Positions 38,505-49,476 of a stretch of DNA of 64,000 nt are shown here, piece after piece. The translations under genes were made by a program, and so were the position numbers. The stretch's first letter is position 1, and each line of letters opens with the position of its first letter. A model generated the notes under the pieces. That model searched no databases and was not told the origin of the DNA. It saw nothing but the letters and a program-made list of their open reading frames with translations. This stretch comes from Brevibacterium sp. JSBI002 (GTDB lineage Bacteria; Actinomycetota; Actinomycetes; Actinomycetales; Brevibacteriaceae): NCBI RefSeq assembly GCF_026013965.1, contig NZ_CP110341.1, forward strand, positions 2,170,001 through 2,234,000, read 5' to 3'.

Positions 38505-41500
38505 GTGAGAGAATACGCACCGCAGTTCCCGTCCCCCGTACGGCCCCGTGAGGACCGCACCCTCATCGACGTCCTCCTCGAGTCGGCCGCCGCGCATCCC
38601 GATCAGCCGGCCCTCGACGACGGCGCACGGGTGCTCAGTTACTCGGAGCTCATCACCGCGATCCGCGATCTCGCGCTGAAGATGGCCGAAGCCGGGATCG
38701 GTCCCGGTGACAAGGTCGGCGTCCGTGTCCCCTCAGGATCGGTGGATCTGTATCTGGCGATCCTCGCCACGCTCATGCTCGGCGCGGCCTACGTTCCCGT
38801 CGACGTCGACGACCCGGATGAGCGGGCGCGCACCGTGTTCACCGAGGCGGCCGTGACCGGAGTGGTGACCGCCGGACCACACATCGAGTCCCGCACCGAC
38901 CGTGGCCCTCTCGACCGTTCCGAGCTGCGGTCCCCCACTCCCGATGACGACTGCTGGGTGATCTTCACCTCCGGGTCGACGGGCACTCCGAAGGGCGTTG
39001 CCGTCACCCACTGTTCGGCAGCGGCATTCGTCGACGCCGAGGCAGCCCTGTTCTGCGTCGAGGAGCCGCTGGGTCCCGGCGATCGCGTCCTCGCCGGACT
39101 GTCCGTGGCCTTCGACGCCAGCTGCGAGGAGATGTGGCTGGCGTGGCGGAACGGCGCGTGCCTGGTCCCCGCCCCGCGTGCGCTGGTGAAGTCCGGGATG
39201 GATCTGGGCCCCTGGCTGTCGTCGCGGCAGATCACCGTCGTCTCGACCGTTCCGACCCTGGCCGCGTTGTGGCCGGCGGAGAGTCTCGACAATGTCCGTC
39301 TCCTCATCTTCGGCGGCGAGGCGTGTCCGCCCGAGCTGGGGCGCCGGCTCAGCGATGACGACCGCGAGGTGTGGAACACCTACGGGCCCACCGAGGCGAC
39401 GGTCGTCGCCTGTGCCGCCATGCTCGACGGATCCGAACCGGTGCGCATCGGCCTGCCGCTCAAGGGCTGGGACCTGGCCGTCGTCGATGCCGAGGGCACG
39501 CCCGTCGCCGAAGGTGAGACCGGTGAGCTCATCATCGGCGGAGTCGGACTGGCCCGCTATCTCGATCCGGCCAAGGACGCCGAGAAGTTCGCTCCCATGC
39601 CGAGTCTCGGCTGGGAGCGGGCGTACCGATCTGGAGATCTCGTCATCAATGATCCGGCAGGGCTGATCTTCGTCGGCCGCGCCGACGAGCAGATCAAGCT
39701 CGGAGGCAGGCGCATCGAGCTCGGCGAGATCGATGCTGCACTGCAGGCCCTGCCCGGTGTCGAAGGTGCCGCCGCGGCGGTGAAGAAGACCGCAGCCGGT
39801 ACAGACGTCCTCATCGGCTACCTGGCCCCCGGTGCGGGTTCGGGCGAGGCCGATCTTCCCGCCTGGGAGGCCCGACTGCGTGACGAACTGCCGGCCGCGC
39901 TCGTTCCCCGTCTGGCTCTCGTCGAGGACCTGCCCACGAAGACCTCGGGCAAGGTCGATCGCAATGCTCTGCCCTGGCCGCTCGATGACGGCGCCGATGC
40001 GGCCGGGTCCGATGAGGTCTTCGACGCGGACACGGAATGGGTTGCCGAGCAGTGGGCCGCGGTCCTCGGTGCCCGGCCGGGCAGAGATTCGGACTTCTTC
40101 ACCGCCGGCGGCGGTTCCCTGGGCGCGGCGCAGCTCGTCTCCCGGCTCCGCACCCGCCATCCCAGCGTCACCGTCGGCGATATCTACGCCCATCCTCGCT
40201 TCGGCGCCCTGTCCAGGCTCTGCCGCGGCGAAGAAGGGTCCGGCATCGGACCGACGGGACCCAAGCGCACGATCACACGGACCTCCCGGGGGATGCAGGC
40301 CTTCCAGGTTCTGCTCGGGATTCCGGTGCACATCCTCGGCGGGGTCCGATGGGTGGTGCTGGCGATGCTGGCGGCCAATATCGGGGTCGGACTCGGCGCG
40401 GATCTGCCGCTGACTCCGTGGCCGGTCGTCGCCGTCCTCTTCCTCGTCTTCGTCACCGCCTGGGGACGGATGCTCATCTCAGCCGGAGCAGCGCGTCTGC
40501 TCATGATCGGAATCCGGCCCGGGGACTATCCGCGCTCGGGCTGGGTGCACAAACGGCTGTGGCTGGCCGAGCACATCGCCGATCTCGCTGCGGCAGTCTC
40601 GGTGGCGAGCGCACCCTGGGTGACCTGGTATGCGAAGCTGCTGGGCAACCGCATCGGGCCCGATGCCGATCTGCACTCGGTGCCGCCGGTGACCGGTTTC
40701 CTCACCCTCGGCGAGGGTGCGGCGGTCGAACCCGAGGTCGATCTCAAGGGCTGGTGGGTCGACGGCGATCTGCTGCGCATCGGACGAATCGACATCAGTC
40801 GCAATGCCACGATCGGCGCCCGGTCGACGCTCATGCCCGGCGCCGAGGTGGGGGTCGGCGCCCTTGTCGAAGCCGGATCCGCAGTGACCGGTCGGGTTCG
40901 GAAGAACCAGATCTACTCGGGTTCGCCGGCCGTTCGCGTCGGGAAGGCGAAGAAGTCCTGGCCCGCTCCCCCGCCCAGGCGGCGTCTGCCGTTCCTGTTC
41001 TATGCCGTCGGCTCCCAGATCAATGCGCTTCTGCCGTATCTCTCTGTGGTACCGGGCGTCGCCTTGATGCTCGCCGTCTCCGGGATCGAGGTCGTTGAGT
41101 CACCCTGGCTGCTGGTGGCGTGGTCACCGGTGGTGGCCTGTCTGTGGTTCTTCACCACTGCACTGTTCATCCTCATCGCTGTGCGGCTCCTGGCGATCGG
41201 CATGGAGGAGGGAGAGTTCCCCGTCCGCTCGGCCCGCGGTTACCGGGTGTGGGCGACGGAGCGGCTGCTCGACATGGCGCGGGACCTGCTGTTCCCCCTC
41301 TACGCTTCGATGCTCACCCCGTGGTGGCTGCGCCTCCTCGGCGCGAAGGTAGGGCCGGGCACTGAGATCTCCACGGTCGTCTTCGTACCGAAGATGACGA
41401 CGATCGCGGCCGGTGCCTTCCTCGCCGATGACACGATGGTCGCCAGCTACGAGCTCGGCCATGGCTGGATGCGGGCCGGCCGAGCGAAGGTCGGCAAACG

Positions 41501-42458
41501 TGCCTTCCTCGGCAACTCGGGAATCGCCTCTCCCGGTCGCAGGGTGCCGAAGAACTCCCTCGTGGCGGTGCTCTCGGCGGCTCCGGCGAAGGCGAAGAAG
41601 GGATCGTCGTGGCTCGGCTCTCCCCCGGTGCAGCTGCGCCGCGCCGCCGTGGAATCCGACGAGTCGCTCACCTATGCCCCGACCTTCGGGGTCAAGGCCG
41701 CTCGTGCCTTCTGGGAGACCCTCCGGATCTCCTCGATCATCGCCGGCGGTGTGCTCATCACCGCTGTCGTGCTCACCATCTGGTTCCTCCTCGGTCTGCC
41801 TGGCGGGGTGGCCGCTCAGTCGACGACGTTCATCGCCTCCGTGCTGCTGGCCCTGCTCACCTCGGGGATCGTCATGATGGCCGCCGGTGCCGTGGCGGCG
41901 GGACTGGCCGTGGCCGCGAAATGGATCCTCGCCGGACCGATCCGGCCCGGGGAGCATCCTCTGTGGTCGTCATTCATCTGGCGCAACGAGGTCGCCGACT
42001 GCTTCGTCGAACTCGTGGCCGCCCCCTGGTTCGCCCGGAACGCCGTGGGCACTCCTGCCATCGTGTGGTACCTGCGGGCGATGGGTGCGAAGATCGGTCA
42101 CGGCGTATGGTGCGAGTCCTACTGGCTGCCGGAGGCCGACCTCGTCGATCTCGGGGACAACTCGACGGTCAACCGCGGCTGTGTGGTCCAGACTCACCTG
42201 TTCCATGATCGGGTGATGAGCCTCGATACCGTTCAGCTCGATCCCGGTGCCACTTTGGGGCCCAACAGCGTCATCCTCCCAGCCTCCACCCTGGGCGAGA
42301 ACGCCACGGTGGGAGCGACGTCGCTGGTCATGCGCGGCGAGTTCGTGCCGGCCCATGCCTACTTCAGCGGCAATCCTGTCATACCCTGGGTGGATGCCCC
42401 AGAACTTCCCGCGCTCGAAGAAGACGGCCTCCATGAAGCAGGCCGATCGCATGCTTGA
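38505..42458 (+). CDS. Membrane NRPS of the Pls/PosA type (candidate poly-amino-acid synthetase)
   Basis: The 1317-residue protein has an adenylation domain (about 25-510) with FTSGSTGTPKGVAVTH, NTYGPTEATV, YRSGDLV and KTSGKVDR. A peptidyl-carrier domain follows, with the pantetheine serine in GGGSLGAAQL near residue 537. The C-terminal 700 residues have three pairs of membrane helices alternating with three hexapeptide-repeat domains (around 767, 951 and 1212-1285). This is the layout and size of epsilon-poly-L-lysine synthetase (Pls) of Streptomyces. The A domain has FDASCEEMW, with an acidic residue in the pocket that would suit a basic amino acid. A GTG start follows GGAAG. The 3' end overlaps the M1 peptidase gene. 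Confidence 0.85.
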   Translation: MREYAPQFPSPVRPREDRTLIDVLLESAAAHPDQPALDDGARVLSYSELITAIRDLALKMAEAGIGPGDKVGVRVPSGSVDLYLAILATLMLGAAYVPVDVDDPDERARTVFTEAAVTGVVTAGPHIESRTDRGPLDRSELRSPTPDDDCWVIFTSGSTGTPKGVAVTHCSAAAFVDAEAALFCVEEPLGPGDRVLAGLSVAFDASCEEMWLAWRNGACLVPAPRALVKSGMDLGPWLSSRQITVVSTVPTLAALWPAESLDNVRLLIFGGEACPPELGRRLSDDDREVWNTYGPTEATVVACAAMLDGSEPVRIGLPLKGWDLAVVDAEGTPVAEGETGELIIGGVGLARYLDPAKDAEKFAPMPSLGWERAYRSGDLVINDPAGLIFVGRADEQIKLGGRRIELGEIDAALQALPGVEGAAAAVKKTAAGTDVLIGYLAPGAGSGEADLPAWEARLRDELPAALVPRLALVEDLPTKTSGKVDRNALPWPLDDGADAAGSDEVFDADTEWVAEQWAAVLGARPGRDSDFFTAGGGSLGAAQLVSRLRTRHPSVTVGDIYAHPRFGALSRLCRGEEGSGIGPTGPKRTITRTSRGMQAFQVLLGIPVHILGGVRWVVLAMLAANIGVGLGADLPLTPWPVVAVLFLVFVTAWGRMLISAGAARLLMIGIRPGDYPRSGWVHKRLWLAEHIADLAAAVSVASAPWVTWYAKLLGNRIGPDADLHSVPPVTGFLTLGEGAAVEPEVDLKGWWVDGDLLRIGRIDISRNATIGARSTLMPGAEVGVGALVEAGSAVTGRVRKNQIYSGSPAVRVGKAKKSWPAPPPRRRLPFLFYAVGSQINALLPYLSVVPGVALMLAVSGIEVVESPWLLVAWSPVVACLWFFTTALFILIAVRLLAIGMEEGEFPVRSARGYRVWATERLLDMARDLLFPLYASMLTPWWLRLLGAKVGPGTEISTVVFVPKMTTIAAGAFLADDTMVASYELGHGWMRAGRAKVGKRAFLGNSGIASPGRRVPKNSLVAVLSAAPAKAKKGSSWLGSPPVQLRRAAVESDESLTYAPTFGVKAARAFWETLRISSIIAGGVLITAVVLTIWFLLGLPGGVAAQSTTFIASVLLALLTSGIVMMAAGAVAAGLAVAAKWILAGPIRPGEHPLWSSFIWRNEVADCFVELVAAPWFARNAVGTPAIVWYLRAMGAKIGHGVWCESYWLPEADLVDLGDNSTVNRGCVVQTHLFHDRVMSLDTVQLDPGATLGPNSVILPASTLGENATVGATSLVMRGEFVPAHAYFSGNPVIPWVDAPELPALEEDGLHEAGRSHA

Positions 42459-43914
42459 TTCCTATACCCAAGGCGTCGGCAACGCCGACCTTCGCATCGA
42501 CCACTACGATCTCGACCTCGACTACCGAATCGGTCCGAACCGTCTCTCGGCCAGGGCGGTACTCAAAGGTCGAGTGCTCACGGACACCTCGTCGATCGTC
42601 CTCGACCTCACGGGCCTGCGGGTGACCAAGGCCAGCGTCAACGGCAAGAAGGTCCGCTTCTCCGCGCAAGGGAAGAAGCTGCGACTGACCACCCCTGCGC
42701 TGAAGAGCGACAAGCCGGTGGTCATCGACATCAGCTACACGGGCAATCCGGAACCGGCGATCGGCACCTGGGGCGATGTCGGTTGGGAGGAGCTCGAAGA
42801 CGGGGTGCTCGTGGCCGGTCAGCCCGTCGGTGCCTCGACCTGGTTCCCGTGCAATGACCATCCGTCGAACAAATCCCAGTACAGGATCTCGGTGCTCGTC
42901 GAGTCCGAGTACACGGTGGTGTCCAATGGGTCGCTGACGAAGAAGACCCGCAAGGCCGGACGGACCCGCTGGACGTATGAGTCGGCGACTCCCTTGGCGA
43001 CCTACTTGGCGACGGTGCAGATCGGTCGCTACAAATACGGGCAGATCCCGTTGAGTTCCGGAACCTCGGGGTTCGGTGCTGCGATGCGGGGCGCGGCGAA
43101 GGATGCCGTTGCCGGCTCGGCCAGAGATGCCCTCTCCAGCGCCGTCCGAGGAGTCACCGGCCCTGCCGGCAAGGACGTGTCTGTTCACGATTCGTCGGGC
43201 AAGCGTACAAGGCACAGCCGGACCGAGTCCCCTGTTCCCCTCGGCGTCTACGCCGACGATCATTGGGATGTGGCCGTCGAGCGCCTCGGCGTCCAGCACG
43301 GAATGATGAATCTGTTCATCGAACGCTTCGGCCCGTACCCGTTCGACGTCTACGACGTGGTCGTGACCGATGATGTGCTCGAGATCCCGCTCGAGTCGCA
43401 GCCGCTGTCCGTGCTCGGGCCCAATCATCTTGGGCCCGAGTGGGAGGCCGAACGTCTCGTCGCCCACGAGATGGCCCACCAGTGGTTCGGGAACTCGCTC
43501 ACGCCGTCCCGGTGGAAGGACATCTGGCTCAACGAGGGCTTCGCCTGCTATGCAGAGTGGCTGTGGTCGGAGGAGTCCGGGCGTGCGAGTGCCGATGAGC
43601 GTGCGCGGCAGTGGTGGGACGAGCTGTCCGCTCAGCCGCAGGACATCATGCTCGGTGATCCGGGAGGGCCGGACATGTTCGACGACCGCGTGTACAAGCG
43701 CGGCGCACTCTGTCTGCATGCCCTGCGCCTCGAACTCGGCGATCCAGATTTCTTCACCGCAGTCGGCGAGTGGACGAAGCGGTACCGTCATTCGTCGGTG
43801 AGCACCGGGGAGTTCATCCGCTGCGTCTCGGAGGCGGCAGCCCGTGACATCGCCGAGGTGGTCCGCCCCTGGCTCGAGGAGCTGGAGCTCCCGAAGCTGC
43901 CGGAGCTTCAGTAA
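42433..43914 (+). CDS. M1-family zinc metallopeptidase
   Basis: The 493-residue peptidase has the gluzincin site HEMAHQWFGNSLTPS followed by NEGFACYAEW, which supplies the third zinc ligand. An N-terminal beta domain reads IDHYDLDLDYRIGPNRL. The exopeptidase GxMEN motif is not obvious in its usual place; IPLESQPLSV is at that position. It lacks the large C-terminal helical domain of PepN. The start is uncertain among ATGs at 42394, 42433 and 42451. All overlap the upstream synthetase gene, so translation is coupled. No signal peptide is seen. A role in trimming the product of the synthetase is an attractive inference. Confidence 0.87.
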   Translation: MKQADRMLDSYTQGVGNADLRIDHYDLDLDYRIGPNRLSARAVLKGRVLTDTSSIVLDLTGLRVTKASVNGKKVRFSAQGKKLRLTTPALKSDKPVVIDISYTGNPEPAIGTWGDVGWEELEDGVLVAGQPVGASTWFPCNDHPSNKSQYRISVLVESEYTVVSNGSLTKKTRKAGRTRWTYESATPLATYLATVQIGRYKYGQIPLSSGTSGFGAAMRGAAKDAVAGSARDALSSAVRGVTGPAGKDVSVHDSSGKRTRHSRTESPVPLGVYADDHWDVAVERLGVQHGMMNLFIERFGPYPFDVYDVVVTDDVLEIPLESQPLSVLGPNHLGPEWEAERLVAHEMAHQWFGNSLTPSRWKDIWLNEGFACYAEWLWSEESGRASADERARQWWDELSAQPQDIMLGDPGGPDMFDDRVYKRGALCLHALRLELGDPDFFTAVGEWTKRYRHSSVSTGEFIRCVSEAAARDIAEVVRPWLEELELPKLPELQ

Positions 43915-44021: not shown

Positions 44022-44903
44022 GCCGAGCTTGCGAACGAGCACGTCCGAGTCGCCGTTGCGTCCGACGGACACGAATCCGTGGTCGGCGTAGAGTTTCGCC
44101 GCCCCATTGCCGTCTTCGACGGACAGGCTGACCGCGGGGAAGCCGCTCATCCGCGCCAGAGCACAGACCGTGTCGAGAAGGGCGCCGCCGATTCCCTGCC
44201 CCTGGTGGTCGGGCAGCACTGCCATCGAGAGTTCAGGGATGTCGGCCGCCACCCAGCCATATCCGGTGAAAGGCATCTGGTCATCCGTAGGCGTCAGATC
44301 GGCGGCCGTGGTCGATGCGGTACCCTCGTCTGCTCCACCAACCGCGGGGCTTTCTCCGGCTGACTCGGCGTAATCAGCGCCCTTCACAGCCCGTGAATCG
44401 TGCTCGACTTCGTCTGCCGCATCCTCGGGCACAACTTCGCTGCGGACGACCTCGTTGCCGGTCTTATCCAGGGCGGCGGCGAAGTCTTCGCCCACCCGCT
44501 CATCGGCTTTGCCGACAACGTCGTCGATATTCGCCAGTCGCACCCAGGCGAGGCCGACGATCGGTGACTGCGCATCGGCTTCGGCATGCGCGGCGACGGC
44601 GATGTCTCCCTCGCGTCCCCAGCCGCGGTAGTAGAAGACGGCGTCGCTGCGGTATCGGAGGTCCTCGAGTTCGATTCGGGCCCTGTCCATCGACCAGTTG
44701 AAGCACAGGTCGAGGAACGGCAGGAAGGTCTCGTCATCGGTCTCGGCCGGGAGCGGACGGATCCGTCCGCGCAGGGAGGCGGCGGCCGCCTCGGCGGTGG
44801 TGTCCTGCGAATCAGCTGTGGGGTTTTGCGAATCGGCGGTGGTGTCCTGCGAATCTGCGGAAATGTTCTGCGAATCATGAGCGTCAGTGTGTGCAGCGTT
44901 CAT
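44019..44903 (-). CDS. GNAT-family N-acetyltransferase with repeat tail and acidic insertion
   Basis: The 294-residue protein ends in a GNAT fold: ISELSMAVLPDHQGQGIGGALLDTVC (acetyl-CoA P-loop) and GFPAVSLSVEDGNGAAKLYADHGF. The N-terminal 30 residues consist of four heptads DSQ(N/D)xxA. A segment of about 60 acidic residues interrupts the domain between VGLAWVRLANIDD and FTGYGWVAADI. The ATG was chosen with AAGGA five bases upstream, in a 4-bp ATGA overlap with the MATE stop, so both are co-translated. The substrate is unknown. Confidence 0.82.
   Translation of the reverse strand: MNAAHTDAHDSQNISADSQDTTADSQNPTADSQDTTAEAAAASLRGRIRPLPAETDDETFLPFLDLCFNWSMDRARIELEDLRYRSDAVFYYRGWGREGDIAVAAHAEADAQSPIVGLAWVRLANIDDVVGKADERVGEDFAAALDKTGNEVVRSEVVPEDAADEVEHDSRAVKGADYAESAGESPAVGGADEGTASTTAADLTPTDDQMPFTGYGWVAADIPELSMAVLPDHQGQGIGGALLDTVCALARMSGFPAVSLSVEDGNGAAKLYADHGFVSVGRNGDSDVLVRKLG
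44806..44889 (-). repeat. Four 21-bp tandem repeats encoding DSQ heptads
   Basis: TGCGAATC recurs at 44806, 44827, 44848 and 44869, exactly 21 bases apart, with similar flanks. It encodes four in-frame heptapeptides of the form DSQ(N/D)xxA at the N-terminus of the acetyltransferase. The period equals that of the intergenic repeats at the other end of the same gene. Confidence 0.8.
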
Positions 44904-46216
44904 GAGATTCCTTTCTCGACGGCGCGTTCGATCCACGCCCGGTTACGTACTCGCCAGCCCAGTGTCAGGGCGCGGAAACCGACGAATCCGATGCAGAAGC
45001 CGGCCCAGAGCCCGGGTGCTCCCGGCCAGATGTTGATGATCGGAATGAGCAGAATCGCGTATCCGATCACAGCGACCAATTGTGCCAGAGCCAGATACTT
45101 CGCGTCCTCAGCTCCCATGAGCACTCCGTCGAGGACGAAGACGTACCCGGCGATCGGCATGCTCAGGGCGAGGACCGGCAGGAGCGCGGCCAGGGCCGTG
45201 ACCACCGCCGGGTCGGAGGCGAAGGCGCGGGGGATGATTCCGGAACCTGCGAACAGGACGACACCGACGACGATGCCGAAGACGATCCCCCACAAGCACA
45301 GGCGACGGTTGATCGCGGCAACCGCCTCGGTGTTCTTCGCCCCCAGCTCGAGGCCGATCATCGCCTGGCCCGCGATGGCCAAGGAATCGAGGGCGAGCGC
45401 AAGGGCGAAGAAGATGCTCTGAGCGACCTGGATCGCGGCGAGGTCCGTCGTGCCCATTGCGGTGGCCAGGAAGACGAGGAGGATGAGGGCCGCGCGCAGC
45501 GAGGCGTTGCGCACCAACAGCCATCCGGAGGTCTTCGCCGAGGTGAACACGCCTGTCCAGTCAGGGCGGATGCTGGCGTGGAGGCGACGCGCCGCGCGGA
45601 TGGAGATGGTGAGGTAGACCGCGCACATTCCGGCCTGCGCGATGACCGTGCCCATCGCCGATCCCGCGACTCCCATGTCGAGGCCGTAGATGAAGATGGC
45701 ATTGAGGCCGATATTGGCGATGCAGCCGGCGGCGGCGACGACCAGCGGGGTCTTCGTGTCCTGGAGTCCGCGCAGCAGTCCGGTGGCCGCGATGACCATG
45801 AGCATGAATGGCAAGCCCCACCATGAGATCGCCAGATAGGAGTGTGCTCCCGCGGTGATGGTCGGATCCGGGCCGAACGCTTCGACCGCCGTATTCAGAA
45901 GGGGCAGTCCGATGATAATGAGCAGGACGGAGGTTCCCAGTGCCAGCCAGATTCCGTCGAATCCGGCCGTGATCGCGCCCGGCCGGTCCCCAGATCCCAT
46001 CCGTTTCGCCACCCGCGGTGTGGTGGCATAGGCAAGGAAGATCATCAGACCGAGCACCGTCTGCAGGATCGTCGAGGCGATCGCCAGCGATCCCAGAGCA
46101 CCGGCACCGAGGTGGCCGACCATGGCCGTGTCAGTGAGCAGGAAAATGGGTTCGGCGATCAGGGCTCCGAGTGCGGGAAGGGCCAAACGGAGAATGTCTT
46201 TGTCGATCGCTGCCAC
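44900..46216 (-). CDS. MATE-family (DinF-like) multidrug/toxin exporter
   Basis: The 438-residue protein has 12 predicted membrane helices in two homologous halves. It has the MATE opening LALPALGALIAEPIFLLTDTAMVGHLG, GLLRGLQDTKTPLVVAAAGCIANIGLN and second-half IGLELGAKNTEAVAAINRR. It is a cation-coupled exporter family. It is upstream of and overlapping the GNAT gene. Being near the Pls-like synthetase, it might export a cationic product, but it lies on the other strand and this is speculation. Confidence 0.9.
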   Translation of the reverse strand: MAAIDKDILRLALPALGALIAEPIFLLTDTAMVGHLGAGALGSLAIASTILQTVLGLMIFLAYATTPRVAKRMGSGDRPGAITAGFDGIWLALGTSVLLIIIGLPLLNTAVEAFGPDPTITAGAHSYLAISWWGLPFMLMVIAATGLLRGLQDTKTPLVVAAAGCIANIGLNAIFIYGLDMGVAGSAMGTVIAQAGMCAVYLTISIRAARRLHASIRPDWTGVFTSAKTSGWLLVRNASLRAALILLVFLATAMGTTDLAAIQVAQSIFFALALALDSLAIAGQAMIGLELGAKNTEAVAAINRRLCLWGIVFGIVVGVVLFAGSGIIPRAFASDPAVVTALAALLPVLALSMPIAGYVFVLDGVLMGAEDAKYLALAQLVAVIGYAILLIPIINIWPGAPGLWAGFCIGFVGFRALTLGWRVRNRAWIERAVEKGIS

Positions 46217-46557: not shown

Positions 46558-49476
46558 ATGAAGAACATCGGAGACAGCGACGGACGGGTATTCGGCCTGC
46601 CCGCCGCTCCCCCTGCGGAGGCGGAAGGCCGAACTCTGTCCCAGTTCCGCCGCGCTCATGGACTTCGCGTGGAGGTCGCCGAGGATTACGAACTCGTCGA
46701 CCTGCTGGATGCCTATACGCGGAGCAGCCTCGCGCAGGTCAATTCCCTTATCGCCACCAGTCATGTCGTGGCGCAGGACGTCGCCTACGCTCTCGGGCTC
46801 AAGGACGGTCAGCTCGACGCGGTCTACGAGTTCGCGTCGTTCACGGAAACGTCGACCCGTTACTCCTCTCCAGAATCACGCAGCACAATTGCCGCTCGCC
46901 ACGAGAGGAAGGCTCAAACCGAAGCAGCCGACAGCAGCCCCGTCACGCGCCAAGGCATCAGCGCCGAAGCCATCGACCAGAAGACCTGCGCCGTCGACAT
47001 TCCTTCCGAGGATCTCTTCTCCACTCGCAGGACCTGGACCAACAGAGAGAATCTGGCATGGACCCAGGCTGTGGCTCAGGTCGAAGCGGAATCTGGAACG
47101 GAAATCGGCGTCAGCGCCGGTCCGAAGAAGGACCGCGCCGCCGGTCGCCGCCTCCGCCGAGTCCGGAAGTTGGCCGAAGAGCTCTTGTCCGACCCCGCAC
47201 TGCTGCCGGACTTTCCCGGTTTTGACCCGGAACTGACTTTCTTCACATGGCTGCGCGGCAGCATCGAGCCGACCGAAGCAGGCGTGTACTCAAGTCTCCT
47301 CGGCACGACCACGAGCAAGTCGCTTCAACACATGACCTCGTCGATGACGCTGGCACATGGTCTTCCGCGGTTCCTCAAGCGCTGCCTGGCTGGAGACTTC
47401 ACGATCGAATATGTCGACTGTGTGACTCGTGCATGCCGCGACCTGCACTTCAAGCATTTGCCTGCGATGGACGACTACCTGGCGCACAGGCGCGCCGACA
47501 TCACGATTGAGACTTTCAAGCGCTCGCTCGCCCTGCACATTGCAGTGCTTCAACCGAGTGAGGATACGTTGAAGAGTGTTTCGCTGCGTCGCCGAGTTGA
47601 CTTCTGCACCGGTGACGACGGAACTGCCTACCTCACGCTGACCGGTCCCGCCCCGGAGCTTCAGGCCTGCTTCAGGAGGCTCGATGCTTTCGCTCGTGCA
47701 GTGCATAAGAACAATACAAGTGCGTTCTCGAGCCAGCTCAAGGCAGGTGACTGCTTTGAGGAGGAGCGTTCGGTCTCCGCTCTGATGTTCGACATCCTCA
47801 CGCGCACCCGTCCTCAGCTGAAGCTGCGCATCATCAGCACGAACGAGGCAGACGGCTCGTCAACGAGCTCCGACTTCTCCCTCGACGGCCTCTTCGCCGG
47901 CCCCGAGGGCATCCCGATGCACGAAGGCGAGGCCCTGCTCGACTACATCGAGCGGGTATTCGACGATATGGACACGAACGGTGACGAGGCACCGCCGCAG
48001 ACTGCGTCGGCCGATTCGGGAGCCACAGCAGAGAGCGTACCCAGCCCCAAGGCGCCGATCACTCCGGCAGGACGCACTTTCGAGTCCCGGCTGCTCGAGG
48101 CCATCCTCAGCAGCAACAGCACGACCAATCACAACACGGCCGATTCGCTCTCGGCCCTCATCGGCTCGCGTGCGGACGGAGCCCGCCCCGCCGCCGAGGG
48201 CACCGCTGCTGCAGCAGCCGGCGCTGTCGACGCGTTCGGCAAGCCCATCCTCGATGCCGGCGAGCGCCGCATCAGCTTCGAATTCCTCCTGGATATGCCG
48301 ACCAGCGAGTATTGGCTGGCGAATCAGGCGAGCACATTTATCACTGTTCCTCTGCTGACGCTGCTCAGCCAATTCCAGTCGGAAGACGGCAGTCCTCCGC
48401 TGCCGCCCACGGATCCCCCGGGTGCACCACCGGCGAGCAGCGAACCCTCAGGTGCACCGCCGCCGACGACGGACGCCTCAGCTCCCCCACTTCCCCCCGA
48501 GTCACCAACACCCCCGATCACCCCAACAGCGCAGCCCACAGGCCCTGACGTACCGCTAACCTCAAGTGAGGTGTGTGATCTGGCGGGCATGCTTCCAAAC
48601 GGGTCGCCGATCCCTGCCGACATGGCACGACGAGTCGCCGGCTACTCCACCACGTGGACCAGGCTGCTCACCGACCCGGCGTCCGGAACACCTGTCGACG
48701 CGAAGGCAACGTCCTACGCGATTCCCAACAGCGTGCGCAAAACTCTCGTCGCCCAGTTCGTGACGTGCACATTCCCCGGGTGCACACAGCCCGCTGAAGT
48801 GACAGAGGTCGACCATATTGATCCGTTCAATCACTCCGACCCGACCCAAGGTGGCCTCACCCGCTTCGGAAATCTCCACTGCCTGTGCAAGGCCCACCAC
48901 CTGCAGAAGACCAACGGCAATTTCGACGTGCGGATGACCGAGCCCGGCCACCTGGAGTACGTCTTCCGCCAGGGTGTCACCGCGGAGGTCATCTCCCCGG
49001 ACAACCCCATCAGCGTCGAACATGCCCGGCTGTTCCTCGAACGATTCGGCAGTGGCCTGTCCCGACAGGACCGAGCAGTCACACCGGAGCAGTCGAGCGC
49101 TGAGGATCTGCTTGAACACGAGTATGTTCCGGGGCCCGAGCGCGATTCTGACATCGAGCGAGAACCTGACGTTGGCCGTGGATCTGACGCGGAGCCGCCT
49201 AGTGCTCACGCTGAGCCATCTATTGCTGACGGCGGTAGGGCAGATGCGGACCACCCTGTTCCCGGCGACCGGAAACAGGCGAGGGAATGCCCGGAACCAG
49301 CGGCAGCTGCCGGAACCCCCGGCTGGAGAGAACTCGTTGCCGGGGATCTCTACACATTCACACCGAAGCCTGCGACGTGCACCCCCGATCAAGCATCTGG
49401 CGCCGGGCAAGCGGACGAGGACAACTCCGAGCTGCGCGACTGGTTCTGGGACTCGGGCGAACCTCCGCCGTTCTGA
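46558..49476 (+). CDS. DUF222 / HNH endonuclease domain protein (13E12 family)
   Basis: The 972-residue protein belongs to the actinobacterial 13E12-type family. The N-terminal DUF222 region spans about residues 40-460 (RRVDFCTGDDGTAYLTLTG near its end). A Pro/Ser-rich linker (about 610-660) and the C-terminal HNH domain near residues 735-790 follow: CTFPGCTQPAEVTEVDHI, then GGLTRFGNLHCLCKAHH. It is much longer than usual family members (400-550), because of linker insertions and an acidic C-terminal tail. GAGAGGTGAG precedes the ATG. Such genes are often multicopy and associated with mobile DNA; the biological role is unknown. Confidence 0.9.
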   Translation: MKNIGDSDGRVFGLPAAPPAEAEGRTLSQFRRAHGLRVEVAEDYELVDLLDAYTRSSLAQVNSLIATSHVVAQDVAYALGLKDGQLDAVYEFASFTETSTRYSSPESRSTIAARHERKAQTEAADSSPVTRQGISAEAIDQKTCAVDIPSEDLFSTRRTWTNRENLAWTQAVAQVEAESGTEIGVSAGPKKDRAAGRRLRRVRKLAEELLSDPALLPDFPGFDPELTFFTWLRGSIEPTEAGVYSSLLGTTTSKSLQHMTSSMTLAHGLPRFLKRCLAGDFTIEYVDCVTRACRDLHFKHLPAMDDYLAHRRADITIETFKRSLALHIAVLQPSEDTLKSVSLRRRVDFCTGDDGTAYLTLTGPAPELQACFRRLDAFARAVHKNNTSAFSSQLKAGDCFEEERSVSALMFDILTRTRPQLKLRIISTNEADGSSTSSDFSLDGLFAGPEGIPMHEGEALLDYIERVFDDMDTNGDEAPPQTASADSGATAESVPSPKAPITPAGRTFESRLLEAILSSNSTTNHNTADSLSALIGSRADGARPAAEGTAAAAAGAVDAFGKPILDAGERRISFEFLLDMPTSEYWLANQASTFITVPLLTLLSQFQSEDGSPPLPPTDPPGAPPASSEPSGAPPPTTDASAPPLPPESPTPPITPTAQPTGPDVPLTSSEVCDLAGMLPNGSPIPADMARRVAGYSTTWTRLLTDPASGTPVDAKATSYAIPNSVRKTLVAQFVTCTFPGCTQPAEVTEVDHIDPFNHSDPTQGGLTRFGNLHCLCKAHHLQKTNGNFDVRMTEPGHLEYVFRQGVTAEVISPDNPISVEHARLFLERFGSGLSRQDRAVTPEQSSAEDLLEHEYVPGPERDSDIEREPDVGRGSDAEPPSAHAEPSIADGGRADADHPVPGDRKQARECPEPAAAAGTPGWRELVAGDLYTFTPKPATCTPDQASGAGQADEDNSELRDWFWDSGEPPPF

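Follow-up and report, generated by a model that had tools for sequence, protein, structure and literature searches.

Within a 64,000-nucleotide window (positions 2170001-2234000) of the 3.74 Mb, one-contig genome of a Brevibacterium strain, we found a membrane nonribosomal peptide synthetase (NRPS) gene whose end overlaps the start of a gene for a zinc peptidase of the M1 family (Table 1). Its sequence supports identification of the synthetase as an epsilon-poly-L-lysine (epsilon-PL) synthetase, Pls, and we consider it probable that Pls makes its polymer at the membrane while a cytosolic M1 peptidase clears the polymer remaining inside. The gene pair itself, for synthesis and breakdown of this antimicrobial polymer, is known; the new point is that the peptidase is seemingly intracellular, unlike the exported Streptomyces version. 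What the sequences compared here appear to add is conservation of the pair as a unit across the genus, together with a difference in the peptidase leader. We found neither in the literature examined, which did not cover the original 2010 PldII paper, and we make no claim that they are unpublished.

Assignment of the synthetase

The synthetase gene begins with GTG, and its product has the layout given in the original prediction, namely an adenylation (A) domain, a carrier domain and three membrane/hexapeptide units in 1317 residues, as seen in the open reading frame (ORF), Pfam, NCBIfam and hydropathy results. Pfam identified AMP-binding (E = 6.9e-60), PP-binding (3.6e-8) and Hexapep (3.1e-6; 27.1 bits against a cut-off of 27), as well as Hexapep_2 under its family cut-off (E = 0.00025); no classical condensation or thioesterase domain appeared at E values up to 0.01. 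The NCBIfam model for Pls and PosA, TIGR02353, scored 641 bits (cut-off 423). Hydropathy revealed three hydrophobic regions, which we interpret as helix pairs with one C domain (C1 to C3) after each, the arrangement characteristic of Pls. The predicted closeness in length to Streptomyces Pls was also confirmed, as the annotated Streptomyces pls coding sequence has 3960 nt (1319 aa). The best solved-structure match was the A domain of an epsilon-poly-L-lysine synthase (7wew), which scored 643 bits against 382 for the runner-up, so the likeness is not due to chance. Compared with three Streptomyces members of the Pls clade (L009, L014, L092), identity is 63-65% for the A domain and ∼51% for the whole protein. 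Comparison of the C domains with solved structures covered mainly C2, the predicted model of which resembles left-handed beta-helix acyltransferases.

The residues of the substrate pocket were read from an alignment of 96 synthetases, comprising that of the window, 77 of 80 loci from a genome scan (L038, L052 and L054 were too short and were left out), eight plasmid loci and ten further proteins. As a control, the same columns returned for Acinetobacter baumannii the published PosA code, DMEHNGTVSK. The window code, DAESIGTVVK, equals that of the annotated Streptomyces pls (L092) at all ten positions, which was the comparison that the original prediction had proposed. This code is common to 89 of the 96 rows; a Kocuria row (L067) reads DAESIGTVIK, and the six non-Pls rows carry six differing codes. 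The FDASCEEMW motif with its acidic pocket residue is present as predicted, its first Glu (E208) being pocket position 3. Position 2 in the window synthetase is Ala, which, according to PMC10522769, goes with lysine, Met being found in PosA and Phe in PDAP/PDAB synthetases. In a tree of 48 rows, made by a quick method and with long branches flagged among the outside rows, the window synthetase falls inside a 42-row Pls clade (SH-aLRT 100) that leaves outside PosA, a diaminobutyrate-type row and four others. Over its whole length, the window synthetase shares 51.2% identity with the annotated Streptomyces pls product, 31.7% with A. baumannii PosA and 32.0% with an enzyme whose gene lies next to those for diaminobutyrate transaminase and aspartate kinase. 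Proteins at least 97% identical to the window synthetase belong, where a genus is given, to Brevibacterium.

A synthetase of the PosA or poly-diaminobutyrate type, making another cationic polymer, might be considered because a single NCBIfam name, Pls/PosA, covers the entire family, and the delta-poly-L-ornithine synthetase PosA of A. baumannii (PMC10522769) indeed shares the domain layout and TIGR02353. However, PosA is only 32% identical and has another pocket, Met and Phe do not occur at position 2 of the window code, and both the PosA and the diaminobutyrate-type rows lie outside the fully supported Pls clade, with a pocket result that is independent of the long outgroup branches. We thus regard this alternative as highly improbable, and the PosA branch as the home of the window synthetase is ruled out by pocket and clade alike; the Pls-like label of the original prediction can be narrowed to Pls itself. 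None of the seven annotated features in the A. baumannii PosA stretch is named an M1 peptidase.

One further position may separate the types. Within the C3 motif QTHLFHDR, H1231, D1235 and R1236 are kept in all 96 rows, and residue 1234 is His in all 90 members of the Pls clade but Glu in the six remaining rows; as judged from the alignment, this His may be diagnostic of the lysine type. We also noted a relative on a Streptomyces plasmid (L098, 3848-7867) with the code DSECYGGVTK, the code reported for a homologue from Bdellovibrionales whose activity on L-arginine was modest (PMC10522769).

The peptidase gene and its linkage to pls

The M1 gene starts with ATG and overlaps pls by 8 nt, in keeping with the predicted overlap of a zinc M1 peptidase gene with the synthetase. 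Pfam matched Peptidase_M1 (5.3e-28) and its N-domain (2.7e-17), and the window peptidase has the M1 fold; the residues of its HEMAH-18-E zinc site (H339, E340, H343, E362) are kept in all 72 pls-linked peptidase rows. In the same rows a Glu is invariant at residue 315 (IPLESQ), which we take to be the counterpart of the Glu in the M1 GAMEN motif. The two-domain M1 enzyme of Deinococcus radiodurans (PDB 6a8z and relatives) has the same fold and likewise lacks the C-terminal domains found in larger M1 enzymes, but is 31% identical over the aligned part. An Ala/Gly-rich stretch of low predicted confidence (residues 204-254) is read as a disordered insert; many relatives have ∼435 residues as compared to 487 in the window.

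Because the substrate of a peptidase is not readable from sequence alone, and because the genome also holds two longer M1 genes, the window gene might be an ordinary housekeeping aminopeptidase that lies beside pls by chance. The distribution of the two genes makes this very unlikely. A synthetase above the family cut-off was found in 44 of 57 Brevibacterium genomes, and 43 of these 44 also have a close M1 gene (best E <1e-60; genomes in which only the longer M1 genes match give 1e-13 to 1e-18), which was found in none of the 13 genomes without a synthetase. In all 43 genomes with both, the start of the M1 gene lies 51-351 bases beyond the family match. Completeness is below 90% in three of the 57 genomes (G013, G049, G051), and one of them, G049, is among the 13 with neither gene. 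A Fisher value on this co-occurrence overstates the case, since adjacent genes can be lost jointly and related genomes are not independent. The co-occurrence leads us to reject a chance neighbourhood.

The linkage extends to other genera, sampled here as the best 80 of at least 592 confirmed relatives from the genome scan. An M1 gene follows pls on the same strand in 69 of these 80 loci, where none of six other neighbour genes tested turned up. The remaining 11 include three that end at a contig edge, two with 2.3 and 0.6 kb left (L031 and L051, respectively) and six that lack an M1 gene although over 5 kb of sequence follows. Among 71 pairs (the 69 loci and two plasmid loci), a four-base overlap is possible in at most 47, which is an upper count as the start codon was chosen nearest the four-base overlap position. 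Five Streptomyces or Kitasatospora genomes with M1-less pls loci were checked; L031 and L018 belong to one strain and were taken as a single case. In four of the five (L018, L019, L021 and L060), a second, canonical Pls lies beside an M1 gene elsewhere; the fifth, S. rimosus (L014), had only weaker M1 matches, and the 10 kb fetched for each of the two best (L170, L171) contained no Pls. Likewise, no Pls was present in the 10 kb fetched around the M1 match of the Kocuria genome (L067).

A peptidase gene next to pls, which the original prediction had cited as reported, is found at the annotated Streptomyces pls locus and is described in PMC8117764 and PMC9223678. The Pls/PldII pair of S. albulus resembles the window pair in synthetase layout, in gene order with overlapping ends and in its homologous M1 peptidase. 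Pls is already published for cheese and skin members of the genus, with homologues in 14 of 15 Brevibacterium isolates (PMC8117764), and the window pair is an expected member. The same paper reports that the Corynebacterium variabile (C. variabile) Pls gene, of the same kind and with a peptidase gene noted in its operon, led to epsilon-PL production in S. coelicolor; the portions available treat neither the location of the coryneform peptidase nor conservation of the pair within Brevibacterium.

Site of action of the peptidase

Leaders were called using the start codons nearest the pls stop and a crude hydropathy rule (12-residue mean, threshold 1.0). With the chosen start, the L009 peptidase has 467 residues, as implied by the 1404 bp of S. 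albulus pldII (PMC9223678). A twin-arginine-like N-terminus with a hydrophobic run is present in 9 of 72 pls-linked peptidases, all from Streptomyces (means 1.47-1.88). The other 63, including that of the window and three from Streptomyces (L035, L042, L048), fail the rule, with the highest (L049) at 0.99. No leader was found on the window peptidase, nor any hydrophobic run in frame upstream to 42247 (best mean 0.61). In the peptidase tree, rooted at its midpoint, the nine leader-bearing proteins form one group (support 100/100) within a set of 24, the rest of which are leaderless, four of them (L147-L150) as judged by eye; because the nine are nested among leaderless rows, it is simpler to assume that the leader was gained in Streptomyces. 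By these signals, the window peptidase seems to stay inside the cell, and processing of secreted polymer is less likely because it lacks the leader seen in the Streptomyces group.

As the A and carrier domains must be cytosolic and the membrane helices of the synthetase are paired, C1-C3 are expected on the cytosolic side, and a leaderless peptidase would therefore meet polymer only inside. We propose that Pls would activate L-lysine as the adenylate and load it on the carrier domain, that lysines would be joined through the side-chain amine in the membrane-anchored beta-helix domain formed by C1-C3, and that the chain would leave outward through the membrane part, as described for Pls in the cited papers. 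Polymer that leaked, stalled or re-entered would then be cleaved by the peptidase at the inner membrane face. In epsilon-PL the acyl residue of each amide bond bears a free alpha-amine, the group that an M1 aminopeptidase would recognise via the conserved Glu; because every acyl residue offers such an amine, an open two-domain M1 enzyme could cut many bonds rather than only one end. Such internal cutting would agree with PldII having been described as an aminopeptidase of the endo type (PMC9223678). As to the synthesis-and-trimming unit of the original prediction, pocket and clade support its Pls-like synthetase, and trimming is not established: according to a review, loss of Pld and PldII left production and chain length unchanged (PMC8506220), whereas a CRISPR interference study found longer polymer after PldII repression (PMC9223678), so control of chain length by the peptidase is disputed.

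It could instead be that the same pair works with a peptidase exported without a recognisable leader, or held at the outer face, where it would guard the cell against secreted polymer as proposed for Streptomyces PldII. PldII is said to lie outside the membrane, and PldII-repressed strains tolerate epsilon-PL less (PMC9223678); in addition, the window and Streptomyces peptidases are homologous and occupy the same place beside pls. The missing leader and the low upstream mean (0.61, against 1.47-1.88 in the nine Streptomyces rows) make this possibility unlikely.

Several points nonetheless weigh against clearance of polymer by a cytosolic peptidase. Such a placement departs from that described for Streptomyces PldII, the leader calls depend on chosen starts and a crude rule that L049 missed by 0.01, and a leaderless protein may conceivably be exported. 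Identity of the window peptidase to the Streptomyces peptidases of L009 and L092 reaches only 39.0% and 41.4%, and inside the Pls clade the Streptomyces producers form a set of nine (support 91) apart from the 33-row set that holds the window synthetase (99). In 8 of the 80 loci there is sequence downstream of pls in which M1 was not found, and one Brevibacterium genome (G054) has a diverged synthetase (DAESIGTVIK) and no close M1. Finally, C. variabile itself gave no polymer in culture (PMC8117764), so that the window pair may be silent, and we found no polymer measurement in Brevibacterium in the literature examined.

Neighbouring genes, further synthetases and wider meaning

The pair does not appear to belong to a wider operon. 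In 16 Brevibacterium regions chosen around it (one of which, L165, spans only 4.6 kb), an amidohydrolase was found in 8, a GNAT protein in 9 and MatE in 12, and the six neighbour genes tested in the other-genera loci were sought at E 1e-10; an operon with other neighbours was thus rejected.

Table 1. Features of the pls-peptidase region (window coordinates)
Feature	Position	Strand	Basis
pls, membrane NRPS, epsilon-PL synthetase type, 1317 aa	38505..42458	+	ORF, Pfam, TIGR02353, pocket, tree
Adenylation domain, residues 17-494	38553..39986	+	Solved-structure match range
Nine pocket residues: D204 A205 E208 S247 I268 G270 T292 V300 V301	39114..39407	+	Alignment mapping
Tenth pocket residue, K483	39951-39953	+	Alignment mapping
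Carrier (PP-binding) domain, residues 511-572; serine in GGGSL (535-539)	40035..40220	+	Pfam, alignment
Membrane pair 1 (residues 602-663), then C1	40308..40493	+	Hydropathy
Membrane pair 2 (residues 839-904), then C2	41019..41216	+	Hydropathy
Membrane pair 3 (residues 1068-1146), then C3	41706..41942	+	Hydropathy
C3 motif QTHLFHDR (residues 1229-1236)	42189..42212	+	Alignment of 96 rows
Two-domain M1 zinc peptidase, PldII-like, leaderless, 487 aa	42451..43914	+	ORF, Pfam, structure match, alignment
Ala/Gly-rich low-confidence stretch, residues 204-254 (pLDDT <50)	43060..43212	+	Predicted structure
E315 in IPLESQ	43393..43395	+	Alignment; Glu in 72/72 rows
Zinc site HEMAH-18-E, residues 339-362	43465..43536	+	Alignment
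MatE transporter gene downstream of pair	44900-46216	-	Pfam
972-residue open frame, no Pfam match at 1e-5	46558-49476	+	Pfam

Other synthetases were encountered in the genus. Three diverged ones (L132, 882-5306, in G054; L133, 2467-6672, in G053; L134, 2593-6939, in G044) are 45-46% identical to that of the window. Their pockets read DAESIGTVIK or DAESIGSVIK, and the 8 kb fetched around them gave no M1 match. Those of G053 and G044 are second copies besides the usual one, the G044 copy being broken by an in-frame stop. A further genome (G008) has, in addition to its own Pls, a synthetase with a diaminobutyrate-like code, DFECLSVVTK (L135, 2401-6975).

What such polymers do for their producers has been described as unclear (PMC9606270), and the peptidase has so far been interpreted as self-protection against secreted polymer. 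Should the peptidase prove to be internal in most relatives, either the cell turns over its polymer or the enzyme gives protection from leakage, and Streptomyces would not represent the general situation. We tentatively raise the possibility that the common actinobacterial form is an intracellular polymer cycle of Pls and a cytosolic peptidase, serving clearance or storage of lysine or charge, and that the exported Streptomyces PldII is a late change tied to antimicrobial secretion. Brevibacterium would offer a non-filamentous host in which the question of peptidase location can be tested.

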